From an uncultured Victivallis sp. (GTDB lineage: Bacteria > Verrucomicrobiota > Lentisphaeria > Victivallales > Victivallaceae), in the NCBI RefSeq assembly GCF_944391105.1, contig NZ_CALXSK010000001.1:1-64000 (forward strand): DNA of 64,000 nt, written 5' to 3'. Below, one piece after another: positions 10,142 through 16,346 of this stretch. The notes beneath the pieces are model-generated. The model was not told the origin of the DNA, made no database searches, and saw nothing but the letters and a program-made list of their open reading frames with translations. The first letter of the stretch is position 1, and the number at the start of each line of letters is the position of its first letter. Both the position numbers and the translations under genes were made by a program.

Positions 10142-11074
10142 ATGGCGAGTTTTCTGACCAACGATCTGGCACGTTATCTGCCGCGTCACGCGATGCCGCT
10201 CTATGTGGAGGAGGTCGCCCGCGGAGCGCACCCGGCGCGGAAATTTCACGGGCACACCTTCATGGAGCTGGTTCTCGTTCAAAGCGGTCCCGGACTTCAC
10301 CTGATTCAGGCGGATCCGGAACGGCTGCCGCCGCACCGGGACAAAACACCGTCTTCCGAGTTTGCATCCGAGATTCAGGCGGGAGACGTGCTTCTGATCT
10401 ATCCGGGGGTCTCTCACAGTTACGATCGGACCGAAACCCTCGGTCTGGTCAATCTGGTCTACGACCCCCGCAAACTCGCATTGCCGCTGCTCGACGGGGA
10501 GATGATGCCGCTGTTCGACCGTCTGTTCACACCGCGGCGCGCAATCAACCCGGAACTGGTCGCGCGACCGCTTCTGCATCTCTCTCCCGCCGGAAGCGCC
10601 ACGCTGAGCGGAAAAATCGCCGAACTGGCGGAGGAGCTCTCATCGAACCGGCCCGGCCGGAACTTTTACAGTGCGGCGATTTTCATGGAGATCATCGTAA
10701 CGCTCTGCCGTGCGGGGGAAACGGCAGAGGAGGCACCGGTCCCGGAATTCCTGATCGGCGACGCGATCCGTTACATGTACGACCATCTCTTCGAACCGAT
10801 CAAAATCGACGATCTGCTCGGAGTCGTCCACATGTCACGGCGGAATTTCTTCCGCCGATTCCGCAGCGCGACCGGCAGCACCCCGCACGCCTATCTCAAG
10901 GATCTCCGCTTTTCCCACGCGACCCGGCTGCTGTGCCGGACCGACCTCACCATCACCGAAATCGCATTGAAAAGCGGCTTCTGCGACGGGAATTATCTCT
11001 GCCGGCTCTGCCAGGAGCGGACCGGCATGACGGCGCGCCGCTTCCGCGATATGAACCGCTCCAGACCGGAGTGA
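10142..11074 (+). CDS. AraC-family transcriptional regulator
   Basis: A 310-residue regulator. The N-terminal half is a cupin-like sensor (residues ~15-150, with FHGHTFMELVLVQSG and IQAGDVLLIYPGVSHSY). The last ~100 residues are the double helix-turn-helix of the AraC family (IKIDDLLGVVHMSRRNFFRRF, then LTITEIALKSGFCDGNYLCR). Such proteins bind a sugar or similar effector and activate adjacent operons. It is divergent from the hydrolase-prepilin-GH78 cluster, with paired direct repeats between them, so control of that cluster is the natural inference. No strong ribosome site precedes the ATG. The 3' end lies only 13 bp from the convergent gene at 11088. Confidence 0.88.
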   Translation: MASFLTNDLARYLPRHAMPLYVEEVARGAHPARKFHGHTFMELVLVQSGPGLHLIQADPERLPPHRDKTPSSEFASEIQAGDVLLIYPGVSHSYDRTETLGLVNLVYDPRKLALPLLDGEMMPLFDRLFTPRRAINPELVARPLLHLSPAGSATLSGKIAELAEELSSNRPGRNFYSAAIFMEIIVTLCRAGETAEEAPVPEFLIGDAIRYMYDHLFEPIKIDDLLGVVHMSRRNFFRRFRSATGSTPHAYLKDLRFSHATRLLCRTDLTITEIALKSGFCDGNYLCRLCQERTGMTARRFRDMNRSRPE

Positions 11075-11087
11075 TCGGAAATGCCGC

Positions 11088-13610
11088 TCACTCCCGCGGT
11101 TCGAGAAAACGACGATAGTTTTTCGCGAGATCGGTCATCGCCTCCTGGTAGAAGCGGATCTGGTCGCGCGTGCCGCAGACGGAGACCGCACCCGCCGTCC
11201 CCCCGTCCCCGGTCGGATGGGCAAGATCGCCGATCGTCATGAACCCGTTGACCTGAAGATCGCTCAAAGGGCTGATGAAGATGTCCGCGTCCCGCAGGAT
11301 CGACAACCCCATCGATCCGACGAATTCGCCCATCGACTCCGGCATCCACCGCTGCGCGAGCCGGTAGAAGAGCGGGTGGATCATCGAATAGAGCTCCAGA
11401 AGTTCATAACTCTCGCTCGTGCCGTTCCGTGTGCGCCAGAGCCTGCGGTTGAACTCCTTCTGAAAATTCAGAAATCCCGAAAGCGGATTCGCGGGGTCGA
11501 TGTACGCCCCCGCCCGGATGAAAACCAGACTCAGCTCCCGCTCGGCAGGATTCCCGCTCTTCGGCTCCGTGTCGACCGGAAAAAGCATCTTGCAGTTGCG
11601 GAAAAACCGATGCTGCGCCAGCCCCCAGACCACCATGCCCGCCACCGTCGCGGCGCCCTCCATCAGCGTCGCGTACTTTGCGTTCAATTCACGCCGCAGC
11701 GTCAGCATCGGTCCGAAGTCGAGAAAAAAGCGGTTGCGGAACAGCCGGTTTCCCGCGTAGAGGATCTCCGGCCGCGCCACCGGAGACGACAGCGCCGGAT
11801 ACGGCAGAATCCCCGCACATCCCCAGCTCGTTTTCAACCCCGCAAGACTCTCCTGCATCGGCATGCCGTCGACCGGCACGTGATGGAACTGCATCCACAG
11901 ATCCGCTTCGGCGAAATCCGGCGTGAACCGCGCAACCACGTTCAGCAGTCCCCAGCCGGGATTGCGGTATTTGCGCAGATTCGGACTCGCGATCCGGCGG
12001 GCAAGCTGAAGCTCCCGCTCCTTCGGCAGCAGTTCGCAGTGGAGAAAAGTCGCGGTCAGCAGCCGTTCAACGAGGCTCTTGAGCTCGTGTCGCGCCCCGA
12101 AGCTGAATCCCGGCACTCGACGCGCCCAGCGGCGCATCCGCCCCGCGAGAATCCGCACCTGGTCGCCGCCTTCGTTCGAGCGGAGGCGGTTCACGTTGAC
12201 GACCATGCAGCGCAGCGTCTCGCGGATATGCTCCCGCGTCAGAAGCTGAAAGTTTTCGCGGCTCGTATCGAAATGCATCTCGATCCACAGCAGCTCCCCG
12301 CTCTTGTCGTAGAACGCCTCGGCGATGTCGGTGAAATCGATCTTCCGCCGGCCGAGCCGGAATCTCCCCGGCGCCGCCGTCCAGTGCAGCGCGCTGTGCC
12401 CCCGGATGTACTCCGCCAGATGCTCTGCCAACTCCCGGCGCGCCGCCGGAAAATCCTCCGGCGCGACCTCTTCCCGGCAGTAGCGCAGCCGGAAACACGA
12501 AAGCACGAATTTGGAATATTCATTGCGCAGAAAGATCCCGGTCGCCTTGCGCCAGCCGTTCTCCTCGGCGCGCATGCCGAGTTTTTTCAGCAGTTGCAAA
12601 ACCTTGATGAAAATGAGCAGAAAAACCGTTCCGAAGCTCCAACGGTCCACGAGCCGGGCCATGCGCAGCTTGTACGTTCCGGTCAGCTGGCGCAAGTGGC
12701 TGCCGAACGGCGACGAAGGACGCGGCGGCGGGGTTCTCTCCACCGGAACCGGCGGAGCGGGAGCGCCCGAATCGCACAGAAATTCCGCAATCACTCCGGC
12801 AGTCTCCCCGGGCATCTCCTCCTGAGGGGAGTGTCCGCACTCCGGCAGCACGACGAGCCGGGAGTTCCGGAGACAGCGGTGGAATTTTTCGGCATCTTCA
12901 ACTGAAATGATCCGGTCCTCGGCTCCCCAGATGATCAACGCGGGCAGCGTCCGTTTTTTCAACCCCGCCTGAAAACCGGCCACATTCGGAATGCGGAAGT
13001 GGCGTGCCGCCGCGATCACGCAGTCGCGCGCGCCCGGCAGCCGCATCGCCTCGGCGTACTGCCGGATCAGCTCCTGCGAAATCTTCTCTTCCCGGAAATA
13101 GGCGCGGCTCATGACCAGGTAGACCATGAGCTCCTCGTTTGCGAACCGCAGCAGCGGATTGCGCGGCGAAACCAGCGCCAGCGTGGCGATGAATTCCGGA
13201 ACCTCCGTGAACATCCCGGCCGGGTCGAGCAGAACGAGCTTCACGACCCGTTCACGGATCTCCCCGTCCTCCAGCAGCAGACACGAGATCGCCCCGCCCA
13301 TCGAGTGGCCGACCAGCACAAGATTCCGCAGATCAAGACGGCGGATGAACGCCGCGACGAATGCCGCCTGATCATAGAGCGTCAGATGCTCCGGATCGTT
13401 CTTCGAAGAGTAGCCGAACCCTTTCGCGTCGATCCGGATATAACGATAGTTCTCCGGGAGAAAGTCGAGGAGCGCATCCCAGGTGCAGCCATGTTCGGCA
13501 AACCCGTGGATCAGCAGAACCGGATCCCCCTCTCCTCCGCTGTCGTACCAGGCGATCCGGCTGATCGCCCCCCGGTCGTCCGCGAATTCCGCGTATCTGC
13601 GCTCCCCCAT
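11088..13610 (-). CDS. Fusion of alpha/beta-hydrolase and HHxxxDG-type acyltransferase
   Basis: An 840-residue two-domain protein. Residues 1-280 form an alpha/beta-hydrolase: oxyanion strand LLIHGFAEHG, nucleophile elbow VGHSMGG (Ser103), acid in WGAEDRII (Asp232) and base in CGH (His260). A Pro-rich linker (~282-302) follows. Residues ~310-840 form a larger domain with a hydrophobic segment (GTVFLLIFIKVLQLL) and FHHVPVDGMPM at 575-585. That exact HHxxxDG pattern is the active site of CoA- or carrier-dependent acyltransferases (condensation, CAT and wax-ester-synthase superfamily). A fusion could couple ester or thioester hydrolysis with acyl transfer to a lipid or polyketide-like product. 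The start has GGAG five bases upstream. It is 15 bp downstream of ppdK, so probably co-transcribed. The physiological substrate is unknown. Confidence 0.8.
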   Translation of the reverse strand: MGERRYAEFADDRGAISRIAWYDSGGEGDPVLLIHGFAEHGCTWDALLDFLPENYRYIRIDAKGFGYSSKNDPEHLTLYDQAAFVAAFIRRLDLRNLVLVGHSMGGAISCLLLEDGEIRERVVKLVLLDPAGMFTEVPEFIATLALVSPRNPLLRFANEELMVYLVMSRAYFREEKISQELIRQYAEAMRLPGARDCVIAAARHFRIPNVAGFQAGLKKRTLPALIIWGAEDRIISVEDAEKFHRCLRNSRLVVLPECGHSPQEEMPGETAGVIAEFLCDSGAPAPPVPVERTPPPRPSSPFGSHLRQLTGTYKLRMARLVDRWSFGTVFLLIFIKVLQLLKKLGMRAEENGWRKATGIFLRNEYSKFVLSCFRLRYCREEVAPEDFPAARRELAEHLAEYIRGHSALHWTAAPGRFRLGRRKIDFTDIAEAFYDKSGELLWIEMHFDTSRENFQLLTREHIRETLRCMVVNVNRLRSNEGGDQVRILAGRMRRWARRVPGFSFGARHELKSLVERLLTATFLHCELLPKERELQLARRIASPNLRKYRNPGWGLLNVVARFTPDFAEADLWMQFHHVPVDGMPMQESLAGLKTSWGCAGILPYPALSSPVARPEILYAGNRLFRNRFFLDFGPMLTLRRELNAKYATLMEGAATVAGMVVWGLAQHRFFRNCKMLFPVDTEPKSGNPAERELSLVFIRAGAYIDPANPLSGFLNFQKEFNRRLWRTRNGTSESYELLELYSMIHPLFYRLAQRWMPESMGEFVGSMGLSILRDADIFISPLSDLQVNGFMTIGDLAHPTGDGGTAGAVSVCGTRDQIRFYQEAMTDLAKNYRRFLEPRE

Positions 13611-13625
13611 GCACTCTCCCGGGAG

Positions 13626-16346
13626 TTACTTCCCGTCCGCGATCGCCGATTGCGCCGCCGCCAGCCGCGCAATCGGCACCCGGAACGGACTGCACGAAAC
13701 GTAATTCAGCCCCACCCGGTTGCAGAACTCGACCGACTTCGCCTCGCCGCCCTGCTCGCCGCAGATGCCGATCTTCAGTTCCGGCTTCACGCGACGGCCG
13801 TTCTCGACCGCGAACCGGATCAATTTGCCGACGCCCGCCTGGTCGATCGTCTGGAACGGATCGGCCGCGAGCAGCTTCTTCTCCAGGTAGTCCCCGAGGA
13901 ATCCGCCGATGTCGTCGCGGCTGAAGCCGAAAGTCATCTGGGTCAGGTCGTTCGTGCCGAAGCTGAAGAAGTCCGCCTCCGCCGCCATCTCGTCCGCGAG
14001 CAAACAGGCGCGCGGGATCTCGATCATCGTCCCGACCTTGTACTCGACCGCTTCGAGCCCGAATTTCGCGGCGACCTCGCCGGCGACACGTGCGAGAATC
14101 TTCTTCTGAAAACGGAGTTCCGAGGCGTCGCAGGTCACCGGAATCATGATCTCCGGATGGCATGCAACGCCTTCCTTCTCCAGTTCGACCGAGGCTTCCA
14201 GAATCGCGCGCATCTGCATTTCGGAGACTTCCGGATAAGTGATCCCGAGCCGCACGCCGCGGTGCCCCATCATCGGATTGACCTCGTGCAGATTCTCCGC
14301 GCGTCTGGCGATCTCCTCGACCGTGATACCGAGCGCCGCCGCAAGTTCCGCCCGCGCCGCCGGGGCGCTCGGAACGAACTCGTGCAGCGGCGGATCGAGC
14401 AGCCGGAACGTGACCGGCAGCCCCGCCATCGCCTTGAGCGTGTTCTTCACGTCGTTCTTCACAAACCCGAAGAGGTCCGCAATCGCCGCGACCCTCTCGT
14501 CACGGGTGTGCGCCAGAATCATCCGCCGCAGCGCGAAGAGCGGCTTCTCGCTGTTTTTGCCGTAGAACATATGCTCCGTCCGGAAGAGGCCGATCCCCTC
14601 CGCACCGAAGCTGCGCGCAATCCGCGCATCGTCCGGCGTGTCGGCATTCGCGCGCACGCCGAGTCTTCGGAACTTGTCCACGAGCGCCATGAAGTGCTTC
14701 AGCTGCGGATTCTCGCTCGAATCGATCGTCGTGAGCGCCCCGGCATAGACGTAGCCGCGGCTGCCGTTGATGCTGAGAACATCACGGTCGGTATAAGTCA
14801 CGCCGCCGACCTTCATCGTGCGGTTCGCCTCATCAATCACAAGCGAGCCCGCTCCGACGATGCAGCACTTGCCCCAGCCGCGGCAGACGAGCGCGGCATG
14901 GCTGGTCATGCCGCCGCGGGCGGTGAGAATTCCGGTCGCGGCGCGCATGCCTTCGACATCCTCCGGATTGGTCTCCTCGCGCACCATGACCACTGCTTCC
15001 CCCTTCGCCGCAGCGGCGACCGCCTCGGCGCTGGAGAAAACGATCCGGCCGACCGCTCCGCCCGGCCCGGCCGGAAGTCCCTTCGCGATGATCGACGCCC
15101 CCTTCTCGGCTTTCGGGTCGAGAATCGGATGCAGCAGTTCGTCGAGCTGCGCCGGAGAGACGCGCATCACGGCGGTTTTCTCGTCGATCATCCCCTCTTC
15201 AAGCATGTCCATGGCCATGTTCAACGCGGCCGCGCCGGTCCGCTTGCCGACGCGGCACTGCAGCATGTAGAGCACACCCTCCTGAATCGTGAACTCGATG
15301 TCGAGCATGTCGCGATAATGCGCCTCAAGTTTGTTCCGGATCGCATAAAGCTGTTCGTAAAGAGCCGGATAGAGCTCTTCAAGCGACTTCAAATGTTTGT
15401 TCTGCTCGTTGCAGGTATCCTTGTTGAGCGGATTCGGGGTGCGGGTTCCGGCGACGACGTCCTCGCCCTGCGCGTTGATGAGCCACTCACCGTAGAACTT
15501 GTTCTCGCCCGTGGCCGGATTTCGCGTGAAGGCCACGCCGGTCGCGGAGGTTTCGCCCATGTTGCCGAAGACCATGCTCTGCACATTGACCGCAGTGCCC
15601 CAGTCGTCCGGAATCCCTTCGATGCGGCGGTAGGAGACCGCTTTTTTGCCGTTCCAGCTCTTCAGCACGGCGCAGATGCCGCCCCGGAGCTGCTGCATCG
15701 GATCGTCGGGGAACTCCGCGCCGAGCGTCTCCCGCACTTTCGCCTTGAACGCCGAACAGAGCTGTTTGAGATCCTCGACGGTGAGATCGGTGTCGCTCGC
15801 ATAGCCTTTTTCGGCTTTGAGGTCGTCGAGCATCTCGTCGAGCTGTTTGCGGATCGCCCTGCCCTCCCCGGGCTCGATTCCCTCGGCCTTCTCCATCACC
15901 ACGTCCGAATACATCATGATCAGCCGCCGGTAGGCGTCGTAGACGAACCGCTCGTTGCCGGTCTTGGCGATGAGTCCCGGAATCGTAGATGTCGCCAACC
16001 CGACGTTCAACACGGTCTCCATCATGCCGGGCATCGAACTGCGCGCGCCGGAACGGCAGGAGACCAGCAGCGGATTGGCCGGATCGCCGAACTTCATACC
16101 CATGACCGACTCGACCCGGGCGAGCGCCGCCTGAACCTGTTTCTCCAGACACGCGGGCAGCCGGCCGCCCTCCCGGAAGTAATCGACACAGCATTCGGTC
16201 GTGATCGTGAATCCCGGGGGTACCGGCAGCCCGAGCGAAGCCATTTCCGCCAGATTCGCGCCTTTGCCGCCGAGCAGCTCTTTCATCGAACCGGAACCTT
16301 CGGAATCCCCTCCCCCGAACGAATACACATATTTCTTCTCCGCCAT
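13626..16346 (-). CDS. ppdK: Pyruvate, phosphate dikinase
   Basis: A 906-residue cytosolic enzyme, full length for the family, interconverting pyruvate + ATP + Pi and phosphoenolpyruvate + AMP + PPi. The N-terminal nucleotide-binding domain opens with YSFGGGDSEGSGSMKELLGG and GANLAEMASLGLPVPPGFTI. The central phosphohistidine domain has GGMTSHAALVCRGWGKCCIVG with the catalytic His. The C-terminal PEP-binding barrel carries FFSFGTNDLTQMTFGFSRDD and GICGEQGG with the catalytic Cys. It is typical of anaerobes with PPi-linked glycolysis. A purine-rich GGAAGAGGGAAGA precedes the ATG. The hydrolase-acyltransferase fusion follows 15 bp downstream. Confidence 0.97.
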   Translation of the reverse strand: MAEKKYVYSFGGGDSEGSGSMKELLGGKGANLAEMASLGLPVPPGFTITTECCVDYFREGGRLPACLEKQVQAALARVESVMGMKFGDPANPLLVSCRSGARSSMPGMMETVLNVGLATSTIPGLIAKTGNERFVYDAYRRLIMMYSDVVMEKAEGIEPGEGRAIRKQLDEMLDDLKAEKGYASDTDLTVEDLKQLCSAFKAKVRETLGAEFPDDPMQQLRGGICAVLKSWNGKKAVSYRRIEGIPDDWGTAVNVQSMVFGNMGETSATGVAFTRNPATGENKFYGEWLINAQGEDVVAGTRTPNPLNKDTCNEQNKHLKSLEELYPALYEQLYAIRNKLEAHYRDMLDIEFTIQEGVLYMLQCRVGKRTGAAALNMAMDMLEEGMIDEKTAVMRVSPAQLDELLHPILDPKAEKGASIIAKGLPAGPGGAVGRIVFSSAEAVAAAAKGEAVVMVREETNPEDVEGMRAATGILTARGGMTSHAALVCRGWGKCCIVGAGSLVIDEANRTMKVGGVTYTDRDVLSINGSRGYVYAGALTTIDSSENPQLKHFMALVDKFRRLGVRANADTPDDARIARSFGAEGIGLFRTEHMFYGKNSEKPLFALRRMILAHTRDERVAAIADLFGFVKNDVKNTLKAMAGLPVTFRLLDPPLHEFVPSAPAARAELAAALGITVEEIARRAENLHEVNPMMGHRGVRLGITYPEVSEMQMRAILEASVELEKEGVACHPEIMIPVTCDASELRFQKKILARVAGEVAAKFGLEAVEYKVGTMIEIPRACLLADEMAAEADFFSFGTNDLTQMTFGFSRDDIGGFLGDYLEKKLLAADPFQTIDQAGVGKLIRFAVENGRRVKPELKIGICGEQGGEAKSVEFCNRVGLNYVSCSPFRVPIARLAAAQSAIADGK

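Follow-up and report, generated by a model that had tools for sequence, protein, structure and literature searches.

What does an enzyme do that joins a complete alpha/beta-hydrolase to a large domain with the HHxxxDG motif of acyltransferases? The question is raised by a gene in a stretch of 64,000 nucleotides from an uncultured Victivallis sp. (hereafter referred to as the window). A first-pass annotation of this DNA had described the gene product as an intact hydrolase with GHSMGG, Asp232 and His260, followed by a Pro-rich linker and a large domain carrying HHVPVDG, an order for which it knew of no described enzyme. All of these elements were recovered in our analysis, and a search of the open-access literature yielded no report of such a fusion.

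Architecture and conservation of the fusion gene

The fusion is encoded by a single open reading frame of 840 aa with an ATG start on the minus strand of the window (11088..13610); all coordinates of its parts given below refer to the same strand. The N-terminal domain (aa 1-280, 12771..13610) matched the Pfam family Abhydrolase_1 (PF00561) over aa 30-265 with E=3.3e-28 and carries the nucleophile Ser103 within the GHSMGG motif (13302..13304), the catalytic acid Asp232 (12915..12917) and the catalytic His260 (12831..12833), and is on these grounds an alpha/beta-hydrolase. Asp232 and His260 are invariant among the 32 aligned fused members. In a Foldseek search with this domain, the human monoacylglycerol lipase ABHD6 ranked first and the bacterial membrane phospholipase A 6i8w fourth, with many esterases and C-C hydrolases scoring nearly as high. 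The hydrolase is followed by the Pro-rich linker (aa 281-316, 12663..12770), which is disordered in the structure model over aa ~281-312 (pLDDT < 50 at aa 282-312), and by the C-terminal half of approximately 525 aa (aa 317-840, 11091..12662). This half opens with a hydrophobic helix (aa 326-343, FGTVFLLIFIKVLQLLKK, 12582..12635) and contains the HHVPVDG catalytic motif at aa 576-582 (11865..11885).

The ATG of the fusion gene lies 15 nt past the stop codon of ppdK on the same strand (window 13610-13626), and the two genes may be co-transcribed. The position next to ppdK, which the first-pass annotation had put forward, is thus real in the window, but it carries no information about function: ppdK was found beside the domain gene at only three other loci, all of them in the genus Victivallis, and a functional link to ppdK was rejected because the neighbour is confined to this genus. 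On the opposite strand, a 310-aa open reading frame (10142-11074) ends just past the 3' end of the fusion gene; its translation suggests a possible regulator of the AraC type whose N-terminus is cupin-like.

Hydrolase and C-terminal domain share one open reading frame at about 40 loci, which rules out a sequencing, frame or assembly error as the source of the fusion and, equally, two separate genes joined by mistake. The C-terminal domain as such was detected in 55 of 388 genomes in a phylum-wide search, all belonging to the same order and distributed over 29 genera, and in 68 of the 137 genomes included in a survey of this order, the Victivallales. The relatives carrying it include Victivallis vadensis, members of the Victivallaceae and other Victivallales/Lentisphaerota, and as a stand-alone domain it is encoded by frames of some 510-710 aa. 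A Phycisphaerales genome holds a domain that is 29% identical; in a survey of 294 genomes from the phylum of this relative, the domain was found only in the starting genome. One Victivallis genome lacking a working copy contains a stop-ridden remnant of the domain (G144:C78:4983-5240); the LCAT-like gene introduced below is also missing from this genome.

Identity of the C-terminal domain

An HMM search of both halves of the protein recovered Abhydrolase_1 for the N-terminal half, and none of the families Condensation, WS/DGAT and AATase, which had been named as candidates in the first-pass annotation, for the C-terminal half. The C-terminal domain of the window had no Pfam match, no NCBIfam model naming it and no sequence match in the PDB, and a profile built from 43 relatives retrieved nothing credible from the PDB either. 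Condensation was the best of the weak Pfam families among the domain members, touching two of the 43 with a best E-value of 0.002, the domain of the window not being one of the two. Alignment by hhalign to 18 condensation domains of an Archangium genome gave a probability of 4.6 with the HHxxxDG motifs in register, and alignment to one WS/DGAT member gave a probability of 1.5 over 26 columns around the motif. Membership of the window's domain in Condensation (PF00668) and in WS/DGAT (PF03007) was not supported by these profile comparisons, the latter family showing no match beyond the motif.

The AlphaFold2 model of the C-terminal domain was confident (pLDDT 86.8, pTM 0.86) and returned a BAHD enzyme as best Foldseek match (prob 1.00, E 3.5e-10), besides carnitine acyltransferases, choline acetyltransferase and condensation and epimerisation domains, with the PKS-releasing condensation domain 6cgo among the best matches. 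As the TM-scores reached only 0.3-0.47, with rmsd values of 10-15 Å, the fold match is a distant one. The second His (His577), Asp581 and Gly582 of the HHxxxDG motif are invariant in 43/43 aligned relatives, and the first position of the motif is His in 33 of them. Based on the predicted fold and the HxxxDG motif, we assign the domain to the CAT superfamily, as an unnamed family outside the named families tested; the CAT-like fold, on which the first-pass proposal hinged, is supported by both AlphaFold2 and Foldseek. The helix at aa 326-343 is conserved, forms a helix in the model and exceeds all other stretches of the window protein in hydrophobicity, and it probably makes contact with the membrane.

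An LCAT-like gene partner and other genomic contexts

The sole widespread shared neighbour of the domain gene across the Victivallales is a gene of the LCAT family coding for approximately 500 aa (PF02450, E=5e-9). In its product, a hydrophobic N-terminus is followed by an invariant Cys20, and the protein resembles an exported lipoprotein. Residues Ser220, Asp424 and His462 are likewise invariant, and we take them to be a catalytic triad as in LCAT and PDAT. At 33 loci, the LCAT-like gene is located on the same strand at a distance of at most 400 nt, either upstream or downstream of the domain gene, and at 18 of these loci the two genes overlap by 4 nt. In the absence of an adjacent copy, one is generally found elsewhere in the same genome; among 20 such unlinked loci, no genes were conserved around the LCAT-like copy.

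The two genes also go together at the level of genomes. In the 137 Victivallales genomes, both were present in 64, the domain alone in 4, the LCAT-like gene alone in 2 and neither in 67 (raw Fisher p=2e-31, for genomes of one order that are not independent and with kinship ignored), and both genomes with the LCAT-like gene alone are assemblies of less than 80% completeness. The same table for the 388-genome phylum sample reads 50/5/2/331. Joint absence occurs within genera, for example in three Victivallis genomes that are 94-99% complete, G144 being one of them. Outside the order, one locus (L138) has the domain and the LCAT-like gene side by side, and the Phycisphaerales genome mentioned above has an LCAT-like gene as well. 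In the genome of the window itself (G000) and in that of its nearest relative (G002, 94% identical), no LCAT-like gene was detected even at a loose threshold, so that any two-step scheme involving this gene is incomplete in the species of the window; the cultured Victivallis vadensis (DSM 14823) has both genes.

Two further contexts were found in other phyla. In two Omnitrophota MAGs (L150:4942-7602 and L151:4864-7602), an HpnA/SdmB/OleD-like extended SDR, whose HpnA match lies below the HpnA cut-off, is fused to the front of the domain, and the preceding gene codes for an SRPBCC domain and a homologue of the cyanobacterial acyl-ACP reductase (6jzq, E=1.6e-36); this locus is possibly an ester- or ether-lipid operon. 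In an Archangium MAG (L155:1-5095), a stand-alone domain lies between a fragment of a KR/PfaA-like synthase gene, which it directly follows with a short overlap, and a P450 gene downstream. The Omnitrophota, Archangium and LCAT contexts are all suggestive of chemistry on acyl chains and lipids.

The Omnitrophota locus bears on the idea, already raised in the first-pass annotation, of a wax-type ester synthase. According to this idea, the domain would be a wax-ester/triacylglycerol synthase that makes storage lipids by esterifying fatty alcohols or diacylglycerol, with the hydrolase and the LCAT-like enzyme mobilising or transferring acyl chains. The combination of HHxxxDG and a hydrophobic helix would suit such an enzyme, the dehydrogenase fusion following an acyl-ACP reductase homologue resembles a set leading from acyl via aldehyde and alcohol to ester, and the LCAT family includes the triacylglycerol-making PDAT enzymes. 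However, acyl-ACP reductase was absent from 26 Victivallales genomes under conditions in which control genomes were positive, and no WS/DGAT protein (PF03007) was found in 31 genomes; 14 control genomes were also empty in the latter search, yet the model does find a member in G392. In addition, the domain is not WS/DGAT by profile, and an exported-looking LCAT-like lipoprotein would be odd for a cytoplasmic storage lipid. As neither acyl-ACP reductase nor WS/DGAT was found, the route is disfavoured in the Victivallales, and we regard wax-ester or triacylglycerol synthesis as an unlikely explanation for the domain, wax-ester synthesis being possible in the Omnitrophota.

The Archangium locus, in turn, would suit a condensation-like or release enzyme that takes an acyl chain from the carrier protein of an iterative synthase, with the hydrolase editing or releasing it as a thioesterase. 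Condensation being the best of the weak Pfam families and 6cgo being among the best folds are in line with this proposal. Against it, the LCAT-like gene is the only widespread recurrent neighbour in the Victivallales; among the neighbours annotated there, a subset of the total, no carrier-protein or synthase gene recurs and no recurrent cluster with adenylation or carrier domains is seen, the KR/PfaA-like gene occurring only in Archangium. We consider such a role improbable.

The fused hydrolase itself has a history of decay. Its Ser-Asp-His triad is intact in most fused members, but the nucleophile has been lost in seven (L042, L058, L059, L061, L083, L115 and L135), with Gly in its place in one clade and Phe in L042. 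Asp and His are kept in the five of these that were aligned, and the Ser-lost hydrolases are likely pseudo-enzymes. At least 22 full-length members have no hydrolase at all. In a tree built by a quick method and rooted at the midpoint, the whole hydrolase domain is lost in a number of lineages, among them the rumen clade; the topology would fit a single gain of the fusion once the L138 lineage had branched off, with decay thereafter. Since HxxxDG is kept throughout while the hydrolase decays, in the Ser-lost members as well as in those without a hydrolase, the acyltransferase appears to be the core of the protein and the hydrolase an accessory. Of the 29 members whose hydrolase is missing or defective, 26 had the LCAT-like gene as a neighbour, compared with 6 of the 32 members with an intact one (raw p=2e-8); on the tree, this difference comes down to no more than 5 independent pairs and is not significant. 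The remaining proposal, a self-contained transacylase in which an acyl chain released from one lipid by the fused hydrolase would be re-used by the CAT-like half, can appeal to the single fusion origin with which the tree is compatible, to the mostly intact triad and to the short, flexible linker, but is very doubtful, and the first-pass notion of an enzyme that "recycles its own acyl donor" can hardly be maintained in general, given the many members without nucleophile or whole hydrolase, the re-activation that a free fatty acid released by the hydrolase would need before use by the CAT-like half, and a full-length model (pTM 0.72, no error matrix) in which the relative placement of the domains is not interpretable.

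A candidate envelope-lipid pathway and its relation to known systems

The reading that we favour, at about even odds, is drawn by analogy to the PapA and Chp proteins: the domain would be a lipid O-acyltransferase associated with the membrane, and a transacylase of lipase fold would process its product. The C-terminal domain would be the functional core and act on the cytoplasmic side of the membrane, where the His of HxxxD would move an acyl chain from CoA or a carrier thioester to a hydroxyl group of a lipid or glycolipid. In most cases, the LCAT/PDAT-like lipoprotein, placed outside the inner membrane, would then trans-esterify or remodel the acylated product. The fused hydrolase might serve as an accessory lipase or deacylase that acts on this lipid in the cytoplasm, a function that can be lost.

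The finding that half of the genomes sampled from the order carry the domain, almost always together with the LCAT-like gene, leads us to propose, tentatively and with rather less than even confidence, an undescribed envelope-lipid pathway in the Lentisphaerota and scattered phyla. In this pathway, a new CAT-superfamily acyltransferase would work with an exported LCAT-like transacylase, the acyltransferase having been joined, in separate fusions, to a lipase and to a hopanoid/olefin-type dehydrogenase. As no searched family model of Pfam or NCBIfam names the domain, an apparent lipid enzyme is at present invisible to annotation in half of the sampled Victivallales. The close link to the LCAT-like gene defines a candidate pathway of two genes that lends itself to testing in bacteria of the gut and rumen.

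Compared to BAHD enzymes, carnitine and choline acyltransferases and NRPS condensation domains, the C-terminal domain shares the predicted fold and the HHxxxDG motif, but it differs in that Pfam and PDB profile searches are blind to it, in TM-scores below 0.5 and in an extra N-terminal part with the hydrophobic helix. With WS/DGAT (PF03007), it has in common HHxxxDG and a likely lipid substrate, whereas no profile similarity extends beyond the motif. The fused hydrolase has ABHD6 and the phospholipase A 6i8w among its best fold matches, but within a broad superfamily in which others score close. The partner encoded in trans resembles LCAT and PDAT in its PF02450 match and in the conserved Ser, Asp and His, and is distinguished from them by being bacterial, lipoprotein-like and missing from the genome of the window.

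The closest parallel in terms of logic is provided by the mycobacterial acyltrehalose and sulfolipid systems PapA3 with Chp2 and PapA1/2 with Chp1. In the former, trehalose receives an acyl chain from PapA3 in the cytosol, and the product then undergoes trans-esterification at the periplasmic face by Chp2, a protein of alpha/beta-hydrolase fold (PMC4183827). Here, in contrast, the second enzyme is LCAT-like rather than cutinase-like, an extra hydrolase is fused to the first, and neither an MmpL nor a Pks gene recurs as a neighbour; the parallel is one of organisation. Common to both would be an HHxxxDG step followed by a transacylase of alpha/beta-hydrolase fold acting on one lipid. The fold superfamily of the acyltransferase is known; what appears to be new is the unnamed family, its fused architecture and its strongly linked, unexpected LCAT-like partner.
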